Virus record (IMG/VR): IMGVR_UViG_3300018082_000004
Coordinates: 1-35,524 of that record
Reading direction: 5' to 3' (one strand)
Source of the DNA: a virus
Length of the DNA: 35,524 nucleotides
A model generated the notes under the pieces. The model saw only the letters and a list, made by a program, of their open reading frames with translations, was not told where the DNA came from and did no database searches. Shown piece after piece: positions 7,110-21,470 of the stretch (positions within the stretch are counted from its first letter, which is position 1; each line of letters starts with the position of its first letter). Position numbers and translations under genes: made by a program.

Positions 7110-8411
7110 CTATACGAGTGAGACGAACGGCGACACGGTGTTCGTGCCGTCGGCCAGTGTGATCGCCGCGTTCAGCCACGGCTGTCCATCGACGCGATGC
7201 GTGAAGCGCCAGGCCACCTGATCGTTGGTGAAGAAGGCGTGTTCGCTGAACGCGATCTCCAGCATCCGCCGGTCGCCGATCACGTAGTACGAGAAGTCGC
7301 ACAACGCTACGTCGAATGCCGTGCCGCTGGCTGCCATCTTCTCGCTGAACATCACCGGCAGTCCATACAGCATCGCCGGTGCGCCTTTCGTCACATCAGG
7401 CGCCCAGGCCACGACGGTATTCGTCGTGGACAGCTGCAGCAGCGAGTCGATGATAAACGGATGCACGACCCAGACTGCTTTCTTGTGCGAGGAGGGGACA
7501 AGTCGTTTGAGCATCCCGCGTGCATCGGCCAGCTCGAAGTCAGCCCCAGCGGCCAAGCGCGTGACGGTGATGAGTGAGGGCGCGTTCTCGACGCCGAGCG
7601 GCTTGCCTACACCATTGCCGCGCAGGAAGGCAAAGTCCTCGTACCAACCGATGGCACCACCAAACAGGCGCTTCAGCAGTGCCTCGAGCGCAATCGCGCT
7701 ATCCTCGCGCAGCTCAGATGAGACTTTGGTATAGCCGCCGAGCTTCCAGGCAGTCAGACTCATCTGTCGGAACTTCGGTTCGCGTTCGGTAACTGCGCCA
7801 GCCTCCTCCATCCAGCCAGCGACCAGACCGCCGAAGAAAGCCGTGTTGCCTGCCGTCGGCGCAGTCGTCTGATCCAGCATCGGTAGGATGGCAGTGCGCG
7901 CCGTCATCGGATACGCGAATGCACGCGAGCGAACGATACTCTCCTCGGCGGCGATCTCGTACAGCTCAGCGGTGTATTGCGTCGGGACGACATAGCCGCC
8001 GGCCGTGCCGGACACTTCACCCAGCGCCTTGCCCTCGCCCGGTTCCTCTTCGGCGGGACGCGTCTTGTAGACCGTGCGAAGCCGCTTCTCGTCGCCGCGT
8101 CGCACAGCCAGCAGATAGTCGGCGAAGCTGGTCGTCTTCGCATCGCTCGTGCCGCCGCTGCCCGAAACGTGACCCGCGTTGCGCAATGCCGGTTCATCCT
8201 CGAATCGCTTGAGGATGGCCGTCACCTCATCGAGCCGTTTGTTGATGTCGGCGTGCTCAGCCGTCTTGGATTCGAGCGCGTCGATTTGCTGCTTGATCGC
8301 GTCGGCCTCGTCGAGCAGCGCGGTCGCCTTGGCGTAGTCCTGCGCTTCCGTCGCTGTTTTGGCCGCTGCGATCTTCTCTGCGTACTTCAACTTCAACTGT
8401 TCTAAAGTCAT
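7110..8411 (-). CDS. Major capsid protein, HK97 fold
   Basis: 433 residues. Residues 1 to about 75 form a charged coiled coil (the delta or scaffold-like domain removed by the protease in HK97). The body holds typical HK97-family segments: GTAGGYVVP near residue 137, then FLRGNGVGKPLG near residue 265, and a C-terminal AWRFTHRVDGQP. It lies nine bases after the protease gene. The protein builds the icosahedral head. Cleavage probably falls between residues 75 and 135, but I cannot place it. Confidence 0.95.
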   Translation of the reverse strand: MTLEQLKLKYAEKIAAAKTATEAQDYAKATALLDEADAIKQQIDALESKTAEHADINKRLDEVTAILKRFEDEPALRNAGHVSGSGGTSDAKTTSFADYLLAVRRGDEKRLRTVYKTRPAEEEPGEGKALGEVSGTAGGYVVPTQYTAELYEIAAEESIVRSRAFAYPMTARTAILPMLDQTTAPTAGNTAFFGGLVAGWMEEAGAVTEREPKFRQMSLTAWKLGGYTKVSSELREDSAIALEALLKRLFGGAIGWYEDFAFLRGNGVGKPLGVENAPSLITVTRLAAGADFELADARGMLKRLVPSSHKKAVWVVHPFIIDSLLQLSTTNTVVAWAPDVTKGAPAMLYGLPVMFSEKMAASGTAFDVALCDFSYYVIGDRRMLEIAFSEHAFFTNDQVAWRFTHRVDGQPWLNAAITLADGTNTVSPFVSLV

Positions 8412-8420
8412 TGCGTCACC

Positions 8421-9515
8421 TCACTGACGGTTCGACATCTCCCGCTCGGCCAATCGCAAGCGGGTCAGTACGTTGGCAGTGAGTGCGGCGATCTTCTCGT
8501 CGTCTTCTTCCGGCTCGGCTGCTTGCAAAACTTCGTTCAATGCGTCGAGTGTCCGTTTCAACTTCTCGATGTTCGCGGCAGACAGCACGCGACCGGCTTT
8601 GAGTGCGGCGGGGTCGAAATCCCGTGCGACTCGCGCCAATTCGATGAGCTTGAGATCGGGCGGCTCTTTGTCAAATTGTGAATAATGCTTGCTTAAGTGC
8701 GAATGAACTGTACTGCGATCGGCATCGGGGATGTCCACGCCGCCACGCGCACCCAGTAGCGCACCCATTGCGGCAGCGGTGCCCTTCCACACGGCCTTAC
8801 CTGTACCCTCTCGACTCGCCTGGTGATGCGGCAACTTCAGATCGCCAAATGATTCCGGCGGCATGTTGATGCTATAAGCATAGTGCACCGCGATGCGCCG
8901 CTTCTCGCCATCGGATAAGTCCTCGAATGATTCGTCGGTGAAGTCGCTCAGACCTGGTTTTGACCAGGCCGTGCCTTCGTCGGCGATACCCGTATCACGG
9001 TAGGGCACAGCGGCTTTGCTTGCCAACGTCGCCTCGTTCATGCCCCAGTTGACATCGCTGGTGTCCCATAGCCGCACTTCACGCAAGTTGCGAATCTGGA
9101 TTTCTTTCGAGGCTTCCCCTTCAAAGTCGTATTTGACTGGGTCGTAGCCGAAGCTCATCTCGGTGATCGCGCCGACCTGAATACCCGCCAGCACTTCGCT
9201 GCCGCGCGGCGTATCAAGATACTCACGCGCGACAAGCAGCGCGCCAGTGGCATCGGGATAGCTCTGTTTGAGTTCGTCCGGCAGGTCGTCGCGTCCCACC
9301 TCGCGCAGTTCGCGCACCGCGGCGATCGGTGGATTCATCGTGTCGTGCTGCCACAAGTGACGGATACGTTTGCCGCGTTCGGTCAGAGTCTTTTTGAATG
9401 CGCCCTTCCACAGCCGATCGTTGCCCGCATCGATGTTGCCGAACACACCGGCAAAGCCGGTAACTGTGCGGCCTTCGATCTGCTTGACGAACTGCGGTGT
9501 CGTCTTGTATTCCAT
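8421..9515 (-). CDS. Prohead maturation protease, HK97 family (S78-like)
   Basis: 364 residues. The N-terminal domain has the herpes/HK97 protease pattern: TGFAGVFGNIDAGNDR, then H57 in LWQHD and S121 in EMSFGY as likely catalytic residues. Residues about 195 to 270 are a long helical region with HYAYSINMPPESF and LGARGGVDIPDADRSTVHSHL (in part), which is common as a scaffold-like tail in proteases of environmental phages. The rest is a coiled coil with Asp/Glu-rich end. ATG 9515 follows GAGGATAG. It acts inside the prohead to cut capsid and scaffold. Confidence 0.93.
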   Translation of the reverse strand: MEYKTTPQFVKQIEGRTVTGFAGVFGNIDAGNDRLWKGAFKKTLTERGKRIRHLWQHDTMNPPIAAVRELREVGRDDLPDELKQSYPDATGALLVAREYLDTPRGSEVLAGIQVGAITEMSFGYDPVKYDFEGEASKEIQIRNLREVRLWDTSDVNWGMNEATLASKAAVPYRDTGIADEGTAWSKPGLSDFTDESFEDLSDGEKRRIAVHYAYSINMPPESFGDLKLPHHQASREGTGKAVWKGTAAAMGALLGARGGVDIPDADRSTVHSHLSKHYSQFDKEPPDLKLIELARVARDFDPAALKAGRVLSAANIEKLKRTLDALNEVLQAAEPEEDDEKIAALTANVLTRLRLAEREMSNRQ

Positions 9516-9808: not shown

Positions 9809-10014
9809 TTCAGCCATCTTTGAACTTCTTTATCCAGATGCGCCGAGATGATACGCTGTGCGCGTACCGTCTTTCCTAACTTCAACCAGAATCTAATCCT
9901 GAACTTTTCCCATTTATCAAGATTCACTCCGGCCCGCTTTATCGCTTTAGCCCACTTAGCGAATCCCTTGACAAAGACCATAGTTAAATCGGAGAAGTCT
10001 ATTTTTTGATCCAT
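9805..10014 (-). CDS. Small basic hypothetical protein
   Basis: 69 residues from ATG 10014. It is strongly basic and aromatic (AKWAKAIKRAG, WEKFRIRFWLKLGK), suggesting a nucleic-acid- or membrane-contacting helical protein, but this is only composition. It starts inside the end of the gp10-like gene and its stop overlaps the next start as ATGA, so the three are translationally coupled. Confidence 0.65.
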   Translation of the reverse strand: MDQKIDFSDLTMVFVKGFAKWAKAIKRAGVNLDKWEKFRIRFWLKLGKTVRAQRIISAHLDKEVQRWLK

Positions 10015-10481
10015 CGCCTCACCATTGTCTTGAACAGTTCGCGAATCTCGCCGCGTTTCGCCTGCAGGTCGGCCAGCAGCGTCTTCCACGTGCCGCGATG
10101 ATACGCTGCCTGAGGTCCAGCGCTGCCGAACCGCTTGTGGCCCTTTACCCATGCTGCGTGTGGCGCGCTGCTGCCAACGGTCGCTACTACATCGTTGCCA
10201 ATGCTCTTGACCATCGTATTGAATCCCGTCTCCAGTTGATGCGTCCTGCGATACGGGACTTTGCCCTGTCGCACTAGCCACATGACATAGCGGCGCTGCT
10301 TCTCGCTGACGAATTGCATCTTGCGACGTGATGGCGCGGGATAACGTTTCGTCTCAATCTCGACCAGCTTGCCCGCGTCGCGCACGGTCTTGGCCAGCTC
10401 GTCGCGCAGCGAATCGTCCATGCGTTTCAATTTGGCCCGCAACTCACGCAGGCCGCGAATCTCGACGCTTGCACCCGCCAT
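9999..10481 (-). CDS. HK97 gp10-like head-tail joining or morphogenesis protein
   Basis: 160 residues from ATG 10481, placed behind GAGGATTGAT. The N-terminus matches the gp10-like layout: VEIRGLRELRAKLKRMDDSLRDEL, then a helix with AGKLVEIETKRYP, an RRTHQLETGF turn, and VGSSAPHAAWVKGH (all quoted in pieces). Members join heads to tails or aid morphogenesis. It is oddly placed before the protease gene; in most HK97-type phages it follows the capsid gene. Assignment by motif pattern only. Confidence 0.65.
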   Translation of the reverse strand: MAGASVEIRGLRELRAKLKRMDDSLRDELAKTVRDAGKLVEIETKRYPAPSRRKMQFVSEKQRRYVMWLVRQGKVPYRRTHQLETGFNTMVKSIGNDVVATVGSSAPHAAWVKGHKRFGSAGPQAAYHRGTWKTLLADLQAKRGEIRELFKTMVRRWIKK

Positions 10482-10482
10482 A

Positions 10483-10800
10483 TCAATCCTCACAATCCAT
10501 GATCCAGTCGCACGAGTCCGCACCGCCGCCGGTCAGCGCGAACTCCAGCACCGCCTCGTATAGCTTGCCCGGCGTCATGCCGCTGCGTAGCACGCTCTTG
10601 GTCGTGATGACCTGTGCAGCGACGCTATTTGTGCCGCTCGTCGTCGTGGCGGTCACGTCGGTTCGCGCTGGCAACTCGAAGATGCTCAGCGTCGGCGTGC
10701 CGGTTGGCGCACCCCACGATGTCGGCAGTGTGGCGGTGAAAGGTCGGTTGAATCCCAGGCCGATGGGGACGGGACTTTCGATGGCGCGTCGCTCGCTCAT
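10483..10800 (-). CDS. Hypothetical structural protein
   Basis: 105 residues, ATG 10800 overlapping the previous stop as ATGA. Thr/Ser-rich and beta-prone with PTSWGAPTGTPTLSIFELP and an acidic end (DSCDWIMDCED). The pattern resembles small beta-sandwich structural proteins that describe a field-by-field strand set, but I recognise no family. Likely a virion component because it sits between other structural genes. Confidence 0.7.
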   Translation of the reverse strand: MSERRAIESPVPIGLGFNRPFTATLPTSWGAPTGTPTLSIFELPARTDVTATTTSGTNSVAAQVITTKSVLRSGMTPGKLYEAVLEFALTGGGADSCDWIMDCED

Positions 10801-11768
10801 TCGCGTTTGTCCGGGAAAGTCAATGTAATGCTGCGGATTGGGTAGGTCAAAGCGACACGCCGCTTTCCAAACGACAAAGCCAAGTCGCGCTCACGAAACG
10901 TCAGCTTCAACGGCTCACCCAGTACGGGCGGCACAGGCGCGAGAATGGCCGCAATAAATCGACGACGATCCGATACCGGGATGCGCTGCAACCAACCCGG
11001 CCAGACACGCCGTCGCGCAAACACGAACTCAGCGACCAGCGGAGCCGCCAGAATCGCAGCGACAAAGCGGCGGCGCGGGATGTCAAGATGCCGCGCCACG
11101 AATGGATACACGCTGCGACGCGGTGGAGTATAGACTGCTGGCTGCGGCGCTTCGGCCAATAGCGCCGCAATGAGACTACGCCGGCGTGGTATGTCACTGC
11201 GCTTGACTGCGAATGGATAGGCACGCCGCTCGACCGGTGTGTAGGCACTCGGTGGCGCTTCGACCAACAGCGCGGCGATAAGATTTCGGCGGCGCGGTAT
11301 GTCGCCGCGTCTTGCCGCGAATGGATAGAGTCGTCGTCGCGTGGGCGTGAAGGCGCTTGGCGGTGCTTCGGCCAGAATCGCGGCAACACGAGCACGCCGC
11401 CGCTCAACGTCGAATCGTCGCTGGACGAATGGCGTGACTCGCCGTCGCGTAGGTGTATAAGCACTCGGCGGAGCCTCAGCCAAGAGTGCGGCGACCGACA
11501 CACGCCGACGATCGATGTCGAAGCGCCGCTTGTCGAATGGCGCAATTCGTCGCCGTGGCGGGATGTGTTCTGGCGCTGGCGCTGGAGCAGCCAGGATAGC
11601 CGCGATCCCGACACGCCGAGGCGCAATCCAGAAGCGCCGCCCAAAAGGCCAGACACGACGTGGCCTGAACGGCGGAAACGGCGACGGCGGCGGCGGCGCA
11701 CCAGCTTCAGTGATGCGCCGCACGCGAGCCGCATAGTTGAATGGCGGACGATAGACATGCTTGGGCAC
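10797..11768 (-). CDS. Arginine-rich 36-residue tandem-repeat protein
   Basis: 323 residues from GTG 11768. After a Pro-rich start there are seven copies of a unit of about 36 residues (108 bases). Each unit has RRR-x-x-PF-x-x-RR-x-DI-x-RRR, then the hydrophobic x-x-AALLAEAPPSAYTP. The C-terminus changes to short strands (LTFRERDLALSF, VALTYPIRSITLTFP), a pattern seen at the end of some phage structural proteins. The repeats are very basic. It may bind DNA in the head or be a virion fibre or membrane-active part; no function is known to me. A second long frame (10907 to 11770) is a shadow of the repeats. Confidence 0.75.
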   Translation of the reverse strand: MPKHVYRPPFNYAARVRRITEAGAPPPPSPFPPFRPRRVWPFGRRFWIAPRRVGIAAILAAPAPAPEHIPPRRRIAPFDKRRFDIDRRRVSVAALLAEAPPSAYTPTRRRVTPFVQRRFDVERRRARVAAILAEAPPSAFTPTRRRLYPFAARRGDIPRRRNLIAALLVEAPPSAYTPVERRAYPFAVKRSDIPRRRSLIAALLAEAPQPAVYTPPRRSVYPFVARHLDIPRRRFVAAILAAPLVAEFVFARRRVWPGWLQRIPVSDRRRFIAAILAPVPPVLGEPLKLTFRERDLALSFGKRRVALTYPIRSITLTFPDKRE

Positions 11769-11787
11769 ATGCTACCCGCTATCGTGT

Positions 11788-12240
11788 TTAGCCGACTTCG
11801 GCGAAGATCATGCCCGCGCTGACGGTAAGCGCAGCAGCCGGCGCAACCCCAAATCGGACAGCCAAGAATCCGCCGGGCGCAACCCAGATGCGCGCTTCGG
11901 GAACAGGCTTGTAATACCAGCCATTGAGGATGTTGAAACCTTCCATGTGCATGATATTGCCAAGCGTCCCCTCCACCGTCAGATCAGTGCGCACTGTGCC
12001 GCCATAGGCTGCTGCATTCTCAGCCAATGGTCGCGCAGTGAAAACCGTGCCCGTTCCTACGGCAGTCTTGCGGATGATCTGTGCTGTTTCCATCGTGGAC
12101 GTTTCGCTCACCGTCTGCGAAATCCACGCTTCGAGCAGCGTCACCAGCCGATTCGTCGGCGCGGTGAATTCGATCAGCGATTTGAGTATCGAGACCGAGA
12201 CGTTCTCCATCAACGCGACGTAACTTCTTCCTGACTCCAT
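11788..12240 (-). CDS. Hypothetical virion protein
   Basis: 150 residues. It starts MESGRSYVALMENVSVS and has a central helix LVTLLEAWISQ and a beta-rich C-terminus (WYYKPVPEARIWVAPGG). The start YVALMENVSVSILKSLIEFTAP, in part, resembles a widespread phage family that begins Y-x-V-x-F-x-NVAV and lies near head genes. Likely head or decoration-related; role unproven. It lies in the accessory block between the MuF-like gene and the protease gene. Confidence 0.72.
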   Translation of the reverse strand: MESGRSYVALMENVSVSILKSLIEFTAPTNRLVTLLEAWISQTVSETSTMETAQIIRKTAVGTGTVFTARPLAENAAAYGGTVRTDLTVEGTLGNIMHMEGFNILNGWYYKPVPEARIWVAPGGFLAVRFGVAPAAALTVSAGMIFAEVG

Positions 12241-12252
12241 GTTATCCTCTCC

Positions 12253-12978
12253 TTACATTCTGACTAGAGTTGCTTCACGCCGTCGAGAGGGCGGCGGAAA
12301 TGCTGCGGGTGGTACCGGTTTTAGCGCCACTTGTAAATGTGCCTTGTAGGTCAGCGTCGTGTGCGTATAGGTGGTCGCGCCGAACGCGCCCGCCGTCGCC
12401 CTCTCGCCGGTCGTCATCATCATCGCGCCGCCATTGCCGATGTTGGTCGAGCCGTCCTGTTGCTCAATGATATTCGCCAAGTCGGCATTGGTCTCCGCGC
12501 TGTAGCGTGGCGCGTCGGCGGCGTCCGGCTTGGCACTGACAGCGAGCAGGACAACGAGACAATCATCGACCGTCGTTGTTCCGCCAGTAGCCGACCCCGA
12601 GGTGTCCTCGACCGTCTCTGCCGAACCGACCGTGATGTTTTGCGGATCACCGCTCGTGATGACGCCGCTGAAGGCGTGCCGCTGCGCGTGAACGTGGTTG
12701 CCCGCGTCGGCGATGACCGGATCGCCTTTCACCCCGTCCCAGCGCCGCCAGAAGACGGTGATGCGAGTCGCTATCAGCAGGTCGGCATTGGGCGCCGATG
12801 CTGGCGAGCCAGTGATTTCGGCAAACCCGTTCGCTGTCGAAAGTGTTACCGCCTCGTCCGCCGATTCAACCTGAAGCAGCTCTACATCATTGACGGCCAA
12901 GCCGGCGCCACCTAACGGCGTTGCCGTCGTTATGCTCGCAACCCGCGCACCTGACGAACGATAGGCTGGCAGCGCCAT
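12253..12978 (-). CDS. Hypothetical virion protein of a common beta-rich phage family
   Basis: 241 residues. The order ASITTATPLGG, DVELLQVESADEAVTLS, GFAEI, then RITVFWRRWDG and DAGNHVHAQRHAFSGV is typical of a beta-sandwich family found in many environmental phages and prophages, often near head or tail-tip genes. A Gly/Thr-rich middle (SGSATGGTTTVDDCLVVLL) follows. A surface-exposed virion role is an inference; no enzyme motif is seen. Confidence 0.75.
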   Translation of the reverse strand: MALPAYRSSGARVASITTATPLGGAGLAVNDVELLQVESADEAVTLSTANGFAEITGSPASAPNADLLIATRITVFWRRWDGVKGDPVIADAGNHVHAQRHAFSGVITSGDPQNITVGSAETVEDTSGSATGGTTTVDDCLVVLLAVSAKPDAADAPRYSAETNADLANIIEQQDGSTNIGNGGAMMMTTGERATAGAFGATTYTHTTLTYKAHLQVALKPVPPAAFPPPSRRREATLVRM

Positions 12979-12981
12979 CGG

Positions 12982-13716
12982 CTAAGCCTCCGTCAGCCAG
13001 CACCGACAATTTCCGAGACATTCAAATTCGCCAGGCACGCGATCGCCGGTCTGCGACAAGTAGTCTGCCATCGACTCATACACCTCACCCGCAACGCTTT
13101 GATACAGCGGACACTCGTTACAATGCGCTGCCCTCGGATCGAGATACGCCGTCACACGCGACCCGCGCTGCCCGACGACGAATCCCCATGCGTCGTGAAA
13201 CAGCGTCCACCATGCGCCCGCATACAGCGCCACACGCGACTCGGCGCCGTCCATTAGGTCGCCGAGTGCCGCTTCACCTTCGTCCGCCGCAAGTGCCGCG
13301 ACGATGTCCTCGTCGTTCAAGCCATTGGCAACCCGTTCGCGCAATGCTGGGATGAGACTTGCCGCCAGGAACTGGTCGTTGTCCGCGATGGCATCCATCA
13401 GCAGGTCGTCGGGCAGGTCGATGTCGGCATCGGTCTCGGTCAGCGCTTCCTCGACGGCGACCTGTAGGCGTCGGCGTCCTACTCTTTGCAGTCGCACCAG
13501 CAGCAGCGCTAGCGCCGCTTCGGTCAGCCGGTCGCGGTCGTCTGCATCAGCGTGGGCCAACTGTGCGGCCAAATTGTCCGACCATTCCGCATAGATCGCA
13601 CGCAGCTCAGCCTCGTAGTCGCTCACGCCGACCCGAGCGCGGCGCGGCTGGCGTGCTGCCTTGACACCGTGTTGCTCCAGCGTCTCCAGCATCCGACCCA
13701 GCGCGTCGAGAATCAT
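12982..13716 (-). CDS. MuF/SPP1 gp7-like head morphogenesis protein
   Basis: 244 residues, ATG 13716 overlapping the portal stop as ATGA. Helical N-terminal two thirds. The last 50 residues hold a MuF-type motif: DPRAAHCNECP, then VPGEFECLGNCRCWL, that is CxxC followed by CxxxCxCxL, which ends this family and may bind metal. Family members are minor head proteins that enter the prohead next to the portal and assist DNA ejection or assembly. Its place directly after the portal gene agrees. Confidence 0.85.
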   Translation of the reverse strand: MILDALGRMLETLEQHGVKAARQPRRARVGVSDYEAELRAIYAEWSDNLAAQLAHADADDRDRLTEAALALLLVRLQRVGRRRLQVAVEEALTETDADIDLPDDLLMDAIADNDQFLAASLIPALRERVANGLNDEDIVAALAADEGEAALGDLMDGAESRVALYAGAWWTLFHDAWGFVVGQRGSRVTAYLDPRAAHCNECPLYQSVAGEVYESMADYLSQTGDRVPGEFECLGNCRCWLTEA

Positions 13717-14954
13717 CGGCGCTCCATCGCAGCGACGGCGCGATTGACCGCCTCGGTTGCCGCGCGCAGGTCATCGCCTCGCACCTTGCCATTCGGCGAC
13801 TCGCTATTCGGTGATGCGACTTCTTCGCGCTCAACATATCCCACCAGGTCGCGCGCCTCATCGCGGTCGATAATCCCATCGCCGGGTAGCGGGTTGTAGA
13901 GTGCCTGCGTCGCCTGTGCCTGCTCCAATTGTGCCGCTTGCATAATCTCTAGCCGGCTCGATTGGAACTCCAAGCGCAGACCGATGCGAATCAAGAACTG
14001 TTCATTGACCACATTCTCAATCCACTCTGCCATTGGGATTACCTTCGCGATATAGAAGCCGTACCATTCGCTTTGTGCCGTGGCGAAGTTGGCTGCCTTG
14101 CCGTCGAGCACGGTCGGCGGAATATCATGTGCCACCGCTACATCGTCACGCGCTTCAAGTACCAGCTCCGGCATGCGCGCGTCGCGTATGGTCTGGCCGA
14201 TGGTCTTAACGTCGACGCCAGACCGCACGGCTATGACACGGAACACGTTACGCAGGCCGGTTGCCATGCGCTTGAAGAAGCCTTCGATGCGCTTGAGTTC
14301 GTCATCACTCGTTACAGACGGCACGATGACCAACGAGGTTTGTACCATGCCGCCAGCGTAGAACTTCGAGGCGACGCGGTTGGCGGCCCATAACAGTGAT
14401 GCGGCCTCGACTGCAGTCTTCGATGGCGGCGTATCGGCCTCGGTTTCGCTGTCGTCATTCGGCAGGTGGAAGTAGACGACCTGATCCAATGGAAACGATT
14501 TGCCACCCGTACTAAAGCCAATGTCAAATCCGGTGATACCTTTCTCCTTGTCAATGACCGGCTTGACCGACTTAGCCGGCACGAAACGCGGCATGACGTT
14601 GCGACCTACCTTGTTCGCTTCCAGCAGCCAGTAGGCGCAACCTATCTTCTCGACGGAACGAGCCGTCAAGTTGATTAAGCGTGGCAAGCGCAATGCGAGC
14701 GGGTTGCTTTCGGCTACGTCCTTCTCGCCACTCCACAGCGCAAACGGCACGTGCGACACGGCATTGGCAATCAGGTTGACCGCACGCCGCTCCCACGGCA
14801 CGAAGCGATATGCCTGCTCAACGGTGAGCAGCGCGCCGCCGCCGTCGTCTTGCGGTCCAGTGAGGAATTCGTGCAGCGCGTCGAGGCGCAGCGCGCCGCT
14901 GACGGTGGCCTTGCGATCGGACAATGGTGAGAGGACGTGGACTTCGTATCGCAT
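13713..14954 (-). CDS. Portal protein
   Basis: 413 residues from ATG 14954, which overlaps the terminase stop as TAATG behind GGAGTGG. The order is as in HK97/SPP1-type portals: WERRAVNLIANAVSHVPFALW near residue 55, then FVPAKSVKPV, a wing region with VYFHLPNDDSE, a stem/clip part (ELKRIEGFFKRMATG), and a helical C-terminal crown (MQAAQLEQAQATQALYN). The dodecameric ring is the DNA gate of the head and the dock for terminase. TerL lies directly upstream and the MuF-like protein directly downstream. Confidence 0.92.
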   Translation of the reverse strand: MRYEVHVLSPLSDRKATVSGALRLDALHEFLTGPQDDGGGALLTVEQAYRFVPWERRAVNLIANAVSHVPFALWSGEKDVAESNPLALRLPRLINLTARSVEKIGCAYWLLEANKVGRNVMPRFVPAKSVKPVIDKEKGITGFDIGFSTGGKSFPLDQVVYFHLPNDDSETEADTPPSKTAVEAASLLWAANRVASKFYAGGMVQTSLVIVPSVTSDDELKRIEGFFKRMATGLRNVFRVIAVRSGVDVKTIGQTIRDARMPELVLEARDDVAVAHDIPPTVLDGKAANFATAQSEWYGFYIAKVIPMAEWIENVVNEQFLIRIGLRLEFQSSRLEIMQAAQLEQAQATQALYNPLPGDGIIDRDEARDLVGYVEREEVASPNSESPNGKVRGDDLRAATEAVNRAVAAMERR

Positions 14955-16234
14955 TACCACTCCAGCGCGAAGGCGATGAGCGGGCCGGCGTTTTGCACAC
15001 CACTCCAGGCCAGCGCCAACGCCATCACACAATCGTCGTGCATCCCGGCCGGCGCGGAATAGCGGAACAGACCCGACGTGCTACGCTGCGACTCAAATGC
15101 CTGCAACTCGTTGACCAGTACACTATCGTTCAGGATGCGAATATCGCCATGCTCGAATGCCGATTGCAACTGGCGAACGATGGCGTCCTTCGTGGCACTG
15201 GTCGTGGCGAAGGATGTGATGTTCAGGCCACGCCGGATGAGGTTCTCGATCACGGGTTGGCCGATGCTATTCGACTCGACGATCATCGTGGTCAGGCTGT
15301 AGCGTTGGTAGGTTGCGGTCAGGCGGTCTTCCAACACACTGAAGTCAACGCGGTTGAATCTATCCTGATAGACCTGCTGCTTGGTCATCACGTCGACCAC
15401 GCTGCACACCGTGAAATCAACCGCTTGTGCCACGTCCACGCCGGCGATGTAGGTGTGGCCGTCGATGCGGTCTTGCTCGTGACCTGTCGCCGCTTCGACA
15501 ACATGCCGGAACACGCCGCCGGCATCGTCAATGAACTGCGCCTCGAACTCCTGTGCAAAGACGCGCTCCGGTAGGCTACGTTGTGCCGCCTCGATTTCAC
15601 CGGCCGGGATGAATGGATTGTCACGAGTCGGGAATTGATAAGCAACCACCTCATCACTGTGATACAGTCGCCAGAACCAATTGTGACCCTTCGGCGTCGA
15701 GATGAGCAATGCGCCGCCGTTGCGGTCGGCGAGTGCCGGTCGGAGCGCAGCTTGCCAGGCATCCTCCGCGATGAGTGCACATTCGTCGAGAATCACGTAA
15801 TCTAATCCTGCGCCGCGCAGTGAGTCGGGGTTGTCGGCACTGCGCACCGTGATGCTGCCGCCAGTCGGTAGTTCGAGGTAGTGCTCAATCTCGTTCTTCT
15901 CCGTATGCGCTTCGACCAGTATCTGTTTCAGTTCGCGCCACACCAGCGCTGCCATGCGATACGACGGCGAGATCCACCAAACGATACCGCTACGCAGTGC
16001 GATGTCGATCGCCGTTTCGATGCCTAACGTCGTCTTGCCCCAGCGCCGACCACAGGCCAGTACTTTGAAGCGCGCCGACGTGCTCATCACCCGGCGCTGT
16101 GTCGGGTGCAGTTCCGGCAGCGGGATGCGCTTGGTGACGGTGCTCGACGACGAGACGGGTAGTCGATTCCGACGGCGCTTCGCTGAGGCGCGCGCGGGTT
16201 TTGTCGTACCAGACGATTGCGCCGAGGTTGCCAT
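14954..16234 (-). CDS. terL: Terminase large subunit
   Basis: 426 residues. Walker A is CGRRWGKTT at residues 61 to 69 and Walker B with the catalytic acid is YVILDEC with D150 and E151. ISTPKGHNWFW near residue 185 is the coupling motif. The C-terminal RNase-H-like nuclease has GVDVAQAVDF and the final MHDDCVMALALAW. It packages DNA at the portal. ATG 16234 gives a basic 35-residue lead before the usual IPLPELHPTQ segment and makes a 245-base overlap with the small-subunit frame; a later ATG at 16087 would drop conserved residues. Confidence 0.95.
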   Translation of the reverse strand: MATSAQSSGTTKPARASAKRRRNRLPVSSSSTVTKRIPLPELHPTQRRVMSTSARFKVLACGRRWGKTTLGIETAIDIALRSGIVWWISPSYRMAALVWRELKQILVEAHTEKNEIEHYLELPTGGSITVRSADNPDSLRGAGLDYVILDECALIAEDAWQAALRPALADRNGGALLISTPKGHNWFWRLYHSDEVVAYQFPTRDNPFIPAGEIEAAQRSLPERVFAQEFEAQFIDDAGGVFRHVVEAATGHEQDRIDGHTYIAGVDVAQAVDFTVCSVVDVMTKQQVYQDRFNRVDFSVLEDRLTATYQRYSLTTMIVESNSIGQPVIENLIRRGLNITSFATTSATKDAIVRQLQSAFEHGDIRILNDSVLVNELQAFESQRSTSGLFRYSAPAGMHDDCVMALALAWSGVQNAGPLIAFALEW

Positions 16235-16454
16235 CTTTGCATAGCTCCATCAACTTACTGCTGACGGTGTTGAGCGCACTGGCCTTGCCTCTTTTGATCG
16301 CTTCCACAAATTCCACACTCTCGATTCTGCGGCGGCGTAGAGTTTCATCGCTAATGCCGAGACTGTGGCAAATCTGTATATCGGTCAGGCCAATGCCGGC
16401 TAGCCGTTCTACTTCGGTGATGTCGATCTCTTTGCGCTTGCGACCGGGTTTCAT
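15990..16454 (-). CDS. Terminase small subunit
   Basis: 154 residues from ATG 16454, which overlaps the micro-protein stop as ATGA. Residues 10 to 40 form a helix-turn-helix (VERLAGIGLTDIQICHSLGI, then SDETLRRRR), the DNA-recognition part of small terminases. Residues 40 to 80 hold a helical core ending WYDKTRARLSE. The remaining 75 residues overlap the start of the large-subunit frame and look like low-complexity read-through (rich in His, Pro, Ala). Either the overlap is real or the true end was lost by a frameshift. Confidence 0.8.
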   Translation of the reverse strand: MKPGRKRKEIDITEVERLAGIGLTDIQICHSLGISDETLRRRRIESVEFVEAIKRGKASALNTVSSKLMELCKDGNLGAIVWYDKTRARLSEAPSESTTRLVVEHRHQAHPAAGTAPDTAPGDEHVGALQSTGLWSALGQDDVRHRNGDRHRTA

Positions 16455-16528
16455 GCAATCACCATCACGGCAATGCACAGCAGGGCAAAGCCGAGATAAG
16501 CCGACCAGGCGATGAGGTCACTCTTCAT
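16451..16528 (-). CDS. 25-residue membrane micro-protein
   Basis: MKSDLIAWSAYLGFALLCI followed by AVMVIA. One hydrophobic helix fills nearly the whole product. ATG 16528 lies in the end of the upstream gene and the stop overlaps the TerS start as ATGA, so it is stitched into the operon. The ribosome site is weak (GGGCCAG), so it may depend on coupling. No function known. Confidence 0.6.
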   Translation of the reverse strand: MKSDLIAWSAYLGFALLCIAVMVIA

Positions 16529-16760
16529 CTGGCCCGACCAGTGTGCCATCGTTGCGTACACGGTAGCCGATAGCGTTGAGCAGGTCGCGCAGAGTACGGC
16601 CTTCAACGTTGACGAGACGACGGAAGGCGCCGACTGAGTAGGAACCAGATAGGAATCTGCCGACCAGGTGTGCGACCTTGTTCGCTTGCATCAATGCGGC
16701 ATCTAGAGCGGAGTCGGTTGTCTCTTCTGTCATCAAGATGGGTTCGTCTGGTTGACTCAT
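16518..16760 (-). CDS. Hypothetical protein at the lysis/packaging boundary
   Basis: 80 residues from ATG 16760, overlapping the glycoside hydrolase stop as ATGA; ATG 16781 would add seven residues. It has an acidic N-terminus, then a helix (ALMQANKVAHLVGRFLSG), then a mixed region ending GYRVRNDGTLVGPDEE. No family recognised. Its position before the terminase genes suggests it belongs to packaging or lysis. Confidence 0.65.
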   Translation of the reverse strand: MSQPDEPILMTEETTDSALDAALMQANKVAHLVGRFLSGSYSVGAFRRLVNVEGRTLRDLLNAIGYRVRNDGTLVGPDEE

Positions 16761-17944
16761 AACGGGTGTGCTCGAATCCATAGGTCAAGCTCTGTCGGCG
16801 TCATGGCATTGACACCAGTATACGTCACGCCGGGATAGTTCTGCTGGTAGAATTCACGCAGCGCTGTGTCGCCGCCCCACAGGTCGGGTTGGACGACGAC
16901 GACTTCGCGACTGTCGAGATCGCCGATGCCCGCGTCGTCGGCCGATGGGCCGACGGTATGCTGGCGCGTGCCAGCGATGGCGTAGAACTGCTCGCGGTTG
17001 ACGATGGCAGGATGGATCACGATGTAGCGGCGTTTGTATTGTGTACGGGGAGTGCCGCGGCATGGATCAGGCGGCGGCTCGTCTACGGGAGGTGTCGGCG
17101 TTGGGTGTGTGACGATATAATCGGCCAGCGCTGGCAAAGCCGATTGGATGTTGCTGGCGCCGTCATTCCACTTGCCGAGCGTCCAAGCAGCGCAGCCGAT
17201 AACAAAGCCATCCTTGAATAGCTCCGTATCATACCAGGCGAAGTCTTCGACCAGGGCATCCACGCCGATAAACTCAAAGCCGCCATTCTGACCAGCCTCG
17301 CTAATGACCAACGGAATCACAGCGTCTTGCGCTTTCAACATGGCATACAGGTTGCGATAGCGCAGCGCATGGAAGGGCTGCGTATCGTGCAAGGTCGGGA
17401 TGCTCACGCCCACGCCACCGTATTCGTGACTGGTGAGAATGTGGCCTTTGGACTTCAATGCCGCGCAAGCGCGGGCGATGGCGGTGTGTGCCTCAAGCGG
17501 CGGGTTGCCGGTCGAGAAGGCATACATCCCGATTCGCTTCCCAAGCGCCTCGAAGTGCGGCGCGAGCGCAATGTAGAAATCGGCCTGCCACGACCAGTGT
17601 GCCGACCACTCGTTGCACGGCTCCCAGATGTCGATGTGTGGGTTGAGTTTGATGACTGGCTCGTAGACCTGCTGAAAGTGCAATGCAGCAACGTCACGCG
17701 GCGGCGTGCCGCCAACGGCGTGCACATCCAGACCTTCCCAACCTTCGCCGCTCTTGCGACCAATGGCAAGCACACGATCCGCGCCGAGGATCGTCTTTGC
17801 CTCCTGCGCTGATCCAAAGTCACCGACCATCTTCAAAACCAGCGGCGACGAGGGCGACACAGCATTGGCATCGCGCAGACGAGTCAGAAATGTGCCGAAG
17901 CCGGTGCGCGGACCAGGGACAATGTGCAAACCAACCTTTGACAT
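16757..17944 (-). CDS. Glycoside-hydrolase-like lysin with a C-terminal repeat-type domain
   Basis: 395 residues behind GGAGG. Residues 1 to about 285 look like a TIM-barrel hydrolase of the clan with two catalytic glutamates: E112 in IWEPCNEW (acid/base) and E216 in LVISEAGQ (nucleophile). A Pro-rich linker (THPTPTPPVDEPPPDP) leads to a C-terminal domain of about 95 residues with VGPSADDAGIGDLDSREVVVVQP (in part). I recall this domain from Chloroflexota phage and genome proteins, not from a search. It follows the M23 endolysin, so cell-wall or sheath degradation during lysis is likely; an exopolysaccharide substrate is an alternative. Confidence 0.8.
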   Translation of the reverse strand: MSKVGLHIVPGPRTGFGTFLTRLRDANAVSPSSPLVLKMVGDFGSAQEAKTILGADRVLAIGRKSGEGWEGLDVHAVGGTPPRDVAALHFQQVYEPVIKLNPHIDIWEPCNEWSAHWSWQADFYIALAPHFEALGKRIGMYAFSTGNPPLEAHTAIARACAALKSKGHILTSHEYGGVGVSIPTLHDTQPFHALRYRNLYAMLKAQDAVIPLVISEAGQNGGFEFIGVDALVEDFAWYDTELFKDGFVIGCAAWTLGKWNDGASNIQSALPALADYIVTHPTPTPPVDEPPPDPCRGTPRTQYKRRYIVIHPAIVNREQFYAIAGTRQHTVGPSADDAGIGDLDSREVVVVQPDLWGGDTALREFYQQNYPGVTYTGVNAMTPTELDLWIRAHPL

Positions 17945-17947
17945 GAA

Positions 17948-18514
17948 TTACCCTCCGGGTGGGTTGACGAAAAAGGGTAGCGGGTCGATGTAGCCGTGAT
18001 AGGCGTCCTGCAGACCGATGCGTTTGAGACCGAAATGCAGATGAGCACCGGCGGAGCCGGGCGGCATAACGTTGCCAGTGGCATCGGCCAGTGCAATGAC
18101 CTGACCTTGATTGACTGTATCGCCTTTCTTGGCCCTGGACGAATCGTTGGTCAAGTGCGCGTAGAGCGTCATATATTCGGCGTCAGGTCGTTTGTGCTGG
18201 ATGCGAATGTGGTAGCCGTAGGGGTCGCTGGTGGAGCGGCGACCGACGTGGGTCAGTGTACCATCAGCGGCTGCCGAGATCGGCGTGCCATTCGGCGCGC
18301 GGATGTCAAGACCCTCATGGCCAGGTAGACCGAACCTGGCATACAGTTGGGGATTCGCGCCGAAGGGCTGCGTGACGAGGCGGAACGGCGACGGCCAGAG
18401 CAACCAACGATGATCAGTGGAAACACCGCGCAGTCGAGCGATGACTAGGGTGCGCAATTCGGCATCGCGCTGGGCGATGATCAGCAGGGCGTCGATCAGT
18501 TCTTCGTCGGTCAT
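17948..18514 (-). CDS. M23 (LytM-type) peptidase endolysin
   Basis: 188 residues. The zinc site of the M23 family is complete: H66 and D70 in GHEGLD, H120 in LYAHL, and HLHFG at residues 158 to 162. No signal peptide is visible, so export would need the holin. A helical N-terminal stretch of about 35 residues precedes it. It is a zinc endopeptidase that cuts the peptide cross-links of the wall. The ATG overlaps the TM/coiled-coil gene stop as ATGA. Confidence 0.92.
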   Translation of the reverse strand: MTDEELIDALLIIAQRDAELRTLVIARLRGVSTDHRWLLWPSPFRLVTQPFGANPQLYARFGLPGHEGLDIRAPNGTPISAAADGTLTHVGRRSTSDPYGYHIRIQHKRPDAEYMTLYAHLTNDSSRAKKGDTVNQGQVIALADATGNVMPPGSAGAHLHFGLKRIGLQDAYHGYIDPLPFFVNPPGG

Positions 18515-19980: not shown

Positions 19981-20541
19981 TCATCCTCCCATCAATCGCA
20001 ACACGGGATCGGCGAGCTGCGCAATTGCATCGCTCTGCACGAAACGACCGCCGGTCGCCTCGCTCAGCCGACATAGGAAATCGCGACCACGACCGGCTTC
20101 GGGGCCGATGTAAATCGCATCGATATGCGATTTGAAGGTGCGCGCGACTTGCAGTGCAGTCGTCTCATCGTTTGGCTCGCCATCGCTCACCACGATGAGA
20201 TGGATGCCGCAATCGTCGGCGACCTTGACGAAACGCAATGCCTCAGTGAGATTCGTTCCGCCGTTCAACTCAGGATAGTCACCGCCCGGCACGAATTGCA
20301 CAGTCGATGAGAAGACGATGATACCGATGCGACCGGGTAGTGTAGCCTGGATCCGGCGCAGTTCGTCGCGTGCCGCGTCATGTCGGCGGCGGTTGTTCGG
20401 CGCGTCATTAGTTGCCATGCTGCCACTCGAATCAACAATGACCAGCGCATCGCAGGACAGGAACGATTCAGCTAGGCTGTGGTGATTCTTTTGCGCTGAA
20501 TCGAGCAACGAACCAGGGACAATAGTCAGTTGTGTTGTCAT
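19981..20541 (-). CDS. von Willebrand factor A (vWA) domain protein
   Basis: 186 residues from ATG 20541, overlapping the J-domain gene stop as ATGA. Complete metal-ion-dependent adhesion site: DSSGS at residues 37 to 41, GGTNLTEA, and VSDGEPND. The rest is a Rossmann-like vWA fold with IGIIVFSSTVQFVP and ATGGRFVQSDAIAQL. No AAA+ MoxR partner is nearby, unlike most bacterial vWA pairs. vWA proteins mediate metal-dependent protein contacts; here the partner may be the J-domain protein or a host complex. Confidence 0.88.
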   Translation of the reverse strand: MTTQLTIVPGSLLDSAQKNHHSLAESFLSCDALVIVDSSGSMATNDAPNNRRRHDAARDELRRIQATLPGRIGIIVFSSTVQFVPGGDYPELNGGTNLTEALRFVKVADDCGIHLIVVSDGEPNDETTALQVARTFKSHIDAIYIGPEAGRGRDFLCRLSEATGGRFVQSDAIAQLADPVLRLMGG

Positions 20542-21365
20542 TGTGTCACCCATTGTGTCGTGAAATGGTCGTCGCCCAGCCGCCATGTCGTCACCATGAC
20601 GAGACCCTGACCATCGGTCACATCTTCCCATGCCAGAATCTTCGAGACGGCGAACTTGCCGACGCCAGGCAGTCCCTCGGCAACCAACAGCCCACAGCGC
20701 AGCGGCGGCGTCCAACGGGTCAGAGCGCGGAGTGGATCGAAGTGATGATCGCGGCGACTTGTGCTGGCGGCGAGTGCTAAGCCAGCATCATACTTGCGTC
20801 GCAGCAACGTATCGGATAGCACTCGATATGCCGCGGCGACCTGCTTGAACACGTCGCCCGCGTTGACCTCCTGACATACATCGGGATGCCACTGCCGAGC
20901 CAGGCGACGATAGGCGCGTTTCACATCGTCGTCGTCGGCATTGCGCTTGACCAACAGCATATCGTAGAGTGTGCCATCGGTATCCGGTGTGTCACGTCGA
21001 GATGTTGTGCCGTCAAACCACTGGCGCAGCACGGCGTTAGGAACGACCACCGACCAGCCGCCACCACACCAAGCAAAGGACGAGAACGATCCGTCGCTGC
21101 GTTCCTTCGGCGCGCCGATGTATTCGATGCGGAGTAACCGTTGCACAGGAGCCGACTGATTCTGCACAGCGACCAGCGGCAACACGTCGAATCCCGCCTC
21201 GCGACATGCCTCCTGCACAAATCGCAAGTGACGCGCGTGCACCCGCCACACCCGACCTACCTTGTCCCAGGCGCGATCTTCCAGCGGCAGCGACTTGAGC
21301 CGCGCCACCAACGACGCGCTGTATGGCATCTTCACTTCGAGCACATCACCGACTTGTCGTATCAT
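20538..21365 (-). CDS. HARP-like / J-domain (DnaJ-type) fusion protein
   Basis: 275 residues from ATG 21365 (a TTG at 21380 would add five). The first 55 residues have a HARP-like pattern, VARLKSLPLEDRAWDKVGRVW in part, as found in annealing helicases and some phage proteins. Residues 132 to 190 are a J domain (TLYDMLLVKRNADDDDVKRA in part) with the HPD triplet at 160 to 162, needed to stimulate DnaK. The last 75 residues are unassigned. A phage J protein could direct host DnaK to replication or to capsid factors, as lambda and T4 do with host chaperones. Confidence 0.85.
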   Translation of the reverse strand: MIRQVGDVLEVKMPYSASLVARLKSLPLEDRAWDKVGRVWRVHARHLRFVQEACREAGFDVLPLVAVQNQSAPVQRLLRIEYIGAPKERSDGSFSSFAWCGGGWSVVVPNAVLRQWFDGTTSRRDTPDTDGTLYDMLLVKRNADDDDVKRAYRRLARQWHPDVCQEVNAGDVFKQVAAAYRVLSDTLLRRKYDAGLALAASTSRRDHHFDPLRALTRWTPPLRCGLLVAEGLPGVGKFAVSKILAWEDVTDGQGLVMVTTWRLGDDHFTTQWVTQ

Positions 21366-21375
21366 ATTATGTCGC

Positions 21376-21470
21376 CCCAAAGACCCAAAGACCCAACGTT
21401 TGTATTATTTAATATTTTACCGTATAGCATAAAAGTGACATTATATAAATCCTCGGGTCCCTTGGGTCCC
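21376..21470. other. AT-rich segment flanked by GACCC/GGGTC repeats, possible replication origin
   Basis: CCCAAAGA repeated twice and then CCC (21376 to 21394), a core of about 52 bases with roughly 20% GC (21399 to 21450), then GGGTCCCTT and GGGTCCC (21455 to 21470). The flanks are partly complementary. Two more GACCC boxes lie at about 21537 and 21552 in the helicase gene. It sits between the replication ATPase and the HARP/J gene. The layout of iteron-like boxes around an easily melted core suggests an origin; an operator/promoter region is the alternative. Confidence 0.4.

Follow-up and report, generated by a model that had tools for sequence, protein, structure and literature searches.

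The window, by which we mean the whole stretch of DNA analysed (the entirety of a virus record, 35,524 bases long), contains an arginine-rich repeat ORF within a block of tailed-phage genes, all of which lie on the minus strand in this block. The genes surrounding the repeat ORF are as follows.

7110-8411, minus strand, major capsid protein (MCP)
8421-9515, minus strand, protease
9999-10523, minus strand, HK97-gp10/neck-like protein
10483-10800, minus strand, partner gene, 105 aa, with an ATGA overlap with the repeat ORF; 78% identity in the sister phage L002 and 27% in the distant relative L013 (both described below), adjacent to the repeat ORF in both
10797-11768, minus strand, whole repeat ORF, 323 aa, GTG start
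11788-12240, minus strand, upstream ORF, 150 aa, no family match and no L002 counterpart
12253-12978, minus strand, upstream ORF, 241 aa, no family match and no L002 counterpart
12982-13716, minus strand, MuF-like protein, named by its position and C-terminal sequence
13713-14960, minus strand, portal protein
14954-16234, minus strand, terminase large subunit (TerL), similar to annotated phage terminases

The repeat ORF starts 20 bases past the stop of the preceding ORF, and its end overlaps the start of the partner gene. The initial annotation had assigned it to the head gene block, and its position between the MuF-like gene and the HK97-gp10-like one does place it in the head/neck block. The MuF-like protein is 52% identical to a protein of another phage fragment, L011, and the protein with the corresponding role in L002 has matches to MuF-type head families. 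No similarity was detected between the ORFs at 11788-12240 and 12253-12978 and the L002 upstream genes; these two ORFs are possible members of the cassette discussed below. Elsewhere in the window, inspection by eye revealed an M23-peptidase-like ORF (17948-18514) beside a glycosidase-like ORF (16757-17944) in the region 16757-18514, which are probably lysis genes, the glycosidase-like ORF giving no PHROG match, and an ORF with a DnaJ-like stretch (20538-21380) overlapping a VWA-like ORF (19981-20715) in the region 19981-21380.

The repeat ORF was divided into the following parts, listed from the N-terminus.

11697-11768, minus strand, N-terminal 24 residues with the GTG start; L002 has a head of equal length, with PPPP from the same residue
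11652-11696, minus strand, proline-rich hinge PPPPSPFPPFRPRRV
11544-11651, minus strand, repeat unit 1
11436-11543, minus strand, repeat unit 2
11328-11435, minus strand, repeat unit 3
11220-11327, minus strand, repeat unit 4
11109-11219, minus strand, repeat unit 5, 37 residues
11004-11108, minus strand, repeat unit 6, 35 residues
10917-11003, minus strand, repeat unit 7, short, 29 residues
10800-10916, minus strand, conserved C-terminal tail, 39 residues, four 9-residue repeats xLTLxxRDx; about 62% identity to L002, with four motifs spaced by nine also in L013

The 323 aa of the ORF thus include seven tandem units, each some 36 residues long, starting at residues 40, 76, 112, 148, 184, 221, and 256, with spacings of 36, 36, 36, 36, 37, and 35 residues and a shorter final unit. 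Identity at lag 36 was 0.50, whereas none of 2000 shuffles exceeded 0.23, and the periodicity z score from BLOSUM autocorrelation was 16.9. The protein is rich in arginine (19%), proline (15%), and alanine (15%), with 61 arginines among 323 residues and a net charge of +45. The initial description of 10797-11768 as an arginine-rich protein of seven repeats of about 36 residues was therefore confirmed, on the minus strand, while the conserved C-terminal module had been absent from it.

That description had left room for an overlapping frame, 10907-11770, to be the conserved one. Mismatches between units fell at codon positions 1, 2, and 3 with frequencies of 0.32, 0.30, and 0.60, and pN/pS between units was 0.49 in the frame of the repeat ORF, while the remaining minus-strand frames gave 1.25 and 1.49. 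The opposite-strand frames gave 1.19, 0.55, and 1.54, where the frame at 0.55 is the mirror of the repeat ORF frame, with which its third positions coincide. In the C-terminal tail, comparison of the window with L002 over 41 codons gave 10, 9, and 24 changes at codon positions 1, 2, and 3. The pN/pS values between units ruled out the rival frame, and the units are under purifying selection. With pS at 0.66, synonymous sites have nearly saturated between units, so the array is old and not a product of recent slippage.

The 36-residue plan had been noted as having no known counterpart among virion proteins, and the repeat ORF gave no match to PHROGs, Pfam, NCBIfam, or PDB sequences. In tblastn against annotated phages, the repeat ORF, its L002 homologue, and the partner were all without a match, and the tails of the repeat ORFs gave no usable match; in this tblastn search, some of the repeat query was probably lost to the low-complexity filter, as a local SEG test masked about one quarter of it. 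Searches of IMG/VR by protein, by the pattern D[IVL]xRRRxx[IV]AAxL, and by a tail-end pattern returned L002 and chance matches only. A DNA pattern for LTL motifs spaced by nine, run over 387 prokaryote genomes in each of two largely overlapping draws, returned simple-sequence matches and two candidates (L109 and L110), which were examined and rejected. The record of Tetrasphaera phage TJE1, one of whose proteins was a fold match, was also dismissed, as it contains no tail of LTL motifs spaced by nine. AlphaFold2 prediction of the repeat ORF as a monomer from a two-row alignment yielded no usable model (pLDDT 35).

The sister phage L002 (IMGVR_UViG_3300031576_000194) was found by portal search and is 80% identical to the window in the portal, 86% in TerL, and 80% in the MCP. 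It carries a repeat ORF of 330 aa (L002:13127-14119) followed by the 105-aa ORF that is 78% identical to window 10483-10800. Window and L002 share a short N-terminus, PPPP at index 24, seven units, the conserved tail, and the ATGA overlap into the partner gene. The L002 units are about 37 residues each (n = 7), and the ORF lengths are 330 aa in L002 and 323 aa in the window. In BLASTP between the two repeat ORFs, only the last 41 residues aligned, at 61% identity; the remainder gave no convincing alignment, and hhalign detected no similarity between the unit profiles of the two phages. The L002 core is periodic on its own terms (lag 35, z 6.0) and is neutral, with a net charge of -1 over 250 aa. 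Judged from these sequences, the unit number of seven and the total length are kept between the sisters. As a separate observation, the MuF-like head protein of L002 (L002:14447-15850) contains an intein (Pfam Intein_splicing, E 4e-9), whereas the window MuF-like gene has no insert, and opposite-strand ORFs inside the intein gene (14987-15742) and just downstream (16173-16670) may, by eye, encode homing endonucleases.

In both phages the repeat ORF is encoded among virion structural genes. It has been considered that the repeat ORF encodes a non-virion early or regulatory protein that came to lie in a structural block by chance, a reading in keeping with the lack of any family match; we regard it as improbable, given that the ORF is flanked by same-strand structural-type genes and overlapped by the partner in both the window and L002. 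We infer that the repeat protein and its partner are both present in the virion.

A scan with a TerL profile returned 80 loci, among them L013 (IMGVR_UViG_3300010413_000373; TerL 55%). The only other notable match of the partner profile in these loci was L013:2806-3117 (E 0.003-0.006), and directly upstream of this partner relative lies an ORF of 595 aa (L013:1018-2805), consisting mostly of 22-residue acidic repeats, with the C-terminal end VFLTLNTRDTDLSLDDRDITLTLYDRDLTLTVEDR. LTL-type motifs occur at tail positions 4, 13, 22, and 31 in the window and in L002, and at positions 5, 14, 23, and 32 in L013. Among the 7515 six-frame segments of the loci, only three carried, within their final 60 residues, at least five LTL-type motifs with R, D, or K close behind: the repeat ORFs of the window and of L002, and this ORF of L013. 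A profile built from the two tails did not reach E 1 against L013, which was accepted as a member mainly because the tail motif pattern coincides with an adjacent partner relative. The repeat-module family is known from three phages (window, L002, and L013), of which L013 is distant. Within L013:907-2805, the repeat protein has 59 aspartates and units of the form LTVxDASxTSQxDNVTLTQxHN, and the ORF at L013 614-979, upstream of the repeat ORF, may be a broken or frameshifted N-terminal domain of it.

The position of the module varies: the window has it between the MuF-like and neck genes, L002 between portal and MuF, and L013 upstream of TerL. The MuF and neck genes of L011 (portal 57%, neck 71%) are about 170 bases apart, leaving no room for the module, although L011 is a fragment and the module could be elsewhere; a reading frame of about 55 aa is all that this junction (L011:5709-5882) contains, compared with four genes in the window. 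The variable placement and the absence from the L011 junction fit what an accessory appendage module would show, and the repeat ORF with its partner looks like such a module by its gene order.

The repetitive core is of variable type across the three phages, with net charges of +37 in the window, -1 in L002, and -44 (over 455 aa) in L013, so that strong positive charge is not conserved among homologues of the repeat ORF. This bears directly on an internal or core protein, in which the RRR blocks would serve as a capsid lining or contact the packaged DNA, in the manner of proteins like adenovirus pVII or protamine. The arginine content and net charge of the whole protein given above, and its gene position within the head block, would suit such a role; however, a condensing or capsid-lining protein should retain its basic blocks, and these were not retained, the homologous repeats being neutral in L002 and acidic in L013, while the conserved parts are the putative beta-repeat tail and the beta-sandwich partner. 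A core protein is therefore considered quite unlikely. A membrane-active entry protein, whose repeated IAALLAEAP stretches would insert into the membrane or carry DNA across it, appears very improbable: basic and hydrophobic stretches do alternate in every unit, but the hydrophobic runs are just 6-8 residues long and the pattern is lost in the relatives. Hence, DNA condensation, capsid lining, and action on membranes, which had been suggested from the window alone, were not borne out as a conserved role, as tail and partner persist in phages whose repeats are neutral, or acidic and of another type.

The partner was modelled by AlphaFold2 from three sequences as an all-beta fold (pLDDT 77, pTM 0.69). 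Together with the fold searches, the model predicts an all-beta sandwich of about 100 residues that is Ig/BppU-like. The nearest predicted viral structures were phage proteins of 103-110 aa, including one BppU-N and one minor tail protein, with no Foldseek E below 0.001 in this search. Against the PDB, the wall domain of the Milano collar protein gp13 ranked second (Z 8.2, 2.9 A over 95 residues, 14% identity), with many unrelated Ig domains at Z of about 7; according to the fold tool's own note, such Z values can reflect merely a common arrangement. The match was not taken as membership of a Milano-type collar family, since Z 8.2 is little above the values of unrelated Ig domains. The partner sequence gave no significant match to PHROG, Pfam, or PDB families, and its profile generated a single marginal match (E 0.009) in 132 genomes of one phylum.

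The resemblance of the partner model to the Milano collar wall domain is consistent with a capsid or neck cement, in which extended units running over the outer face of the capsid or collar would pin subunits and the number of sites would set the number of repeats. That the sisters keep unit number and total length, but not sequence, also fits. On the other hand, their MCPs are 80% identical and yet the repeats are unrelated, where peptides that bind a conserved surface would themselves be expected to stay conserved, and the L013 repeats are far more numerous and different. A cement is thus regarded as unlikely.

As far as sequence comparison can tell, all three phages keep the tail plan and the partner, and the repeat block is replaced by others that differ in sequence and charge. 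Conserved tail and partner with replaced repeats and charge argue against conserved DNA condensation and for an interchangeable shaft, and because the shaft would be free to alter its surface at a kept length, an appendage fits these observations best. We therefore propose, with about an even chance of being correct, that the product of the repeat ORF forms the shaft of a virion appendage, such as a neck, head, or tail fibre. In the proposed arrangement, the C-terminal tail would oligomerise or dock on the 105-aa partner, the partner would act as a virion adaptor, and the repeats would form a spacer of defined length with a freely variable surface, suiting an exposed shaft; the high arginine content would then be a trait of the window's version of the shaft and not its function. 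Fibres are usually anchored by their N-terminus, whereas the conserved end of the repeat ORF is the C-terminus, which speaks against a shaft, as do the weak fold matches of the partner and the reliance of L013 membership on motif pattern and gene adjacency.

More tentatively, and with somewhat less than an even chance, the two genes may constitute a cassette in which a fixed tail of four nine-residue beta-repeats and a beta-sandwich partner take wholly different shafts, swapped in sequence and charge between related phages, with the sisters at constant unit number. If this is true, strange low-complexity repeat ORFs in the head blocks of uncultured phages could be read through the tail of LTL motifs spaced by nine and the small downstream beta-sandwich gene, rather than through their repeats. 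The three phages would also provide a natural charge series (+37, -1, and -44) for asking whether shaft charge tracks the host surface, with the anchor fixed across the series and the length fixed between the sisters.

Several characterised systems resemble parts of this arrangement. Small phage beta-sandwich proteins of the BppU N-terminal type (BFVD S5MV39 and others) share the length of 103-110 aa and the overall fold of the partner, but differ in that the partner is without a significant sequence match to the families searched. The Agrobacterium phage Milano collar protein gp13 (PDB 8FWC/8FXR; wall-domain limits from PMC10491603) is a neck-associated protein, and the best fold matches to the partner include its wall domain; however, no fibres emanate from the Milano collar (PMC10491603). 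The 14% identity of this domain to the partner is a further difference. We know of no arginine-rich 36-residue units or LTL tail in the phi29 head fibre protein gp8.5. As far as it is described where cited in PMC12796354, gp8.5 forms a head appendage with a stem built of repeats, which is a parallel only and not a claim of homology, and differs in that these are helix-turn-helix repeats in a supercoiled trimer. The neck fibre of Anabaena phage A-1(L), encoded by gp82-gp81-gp80, takes the form of bead chains (PMC10966104). Its shaft consists of many copies of one small protein, whereas the window encodes tandem units in one chain; the parallel, without implied homology, is that adjacent genes of A-1(L) make a virion appendage combining a repetitive bead-chain shaft with an anchoring protein at the neck, as the window genes would combine a shaft with an anchor.
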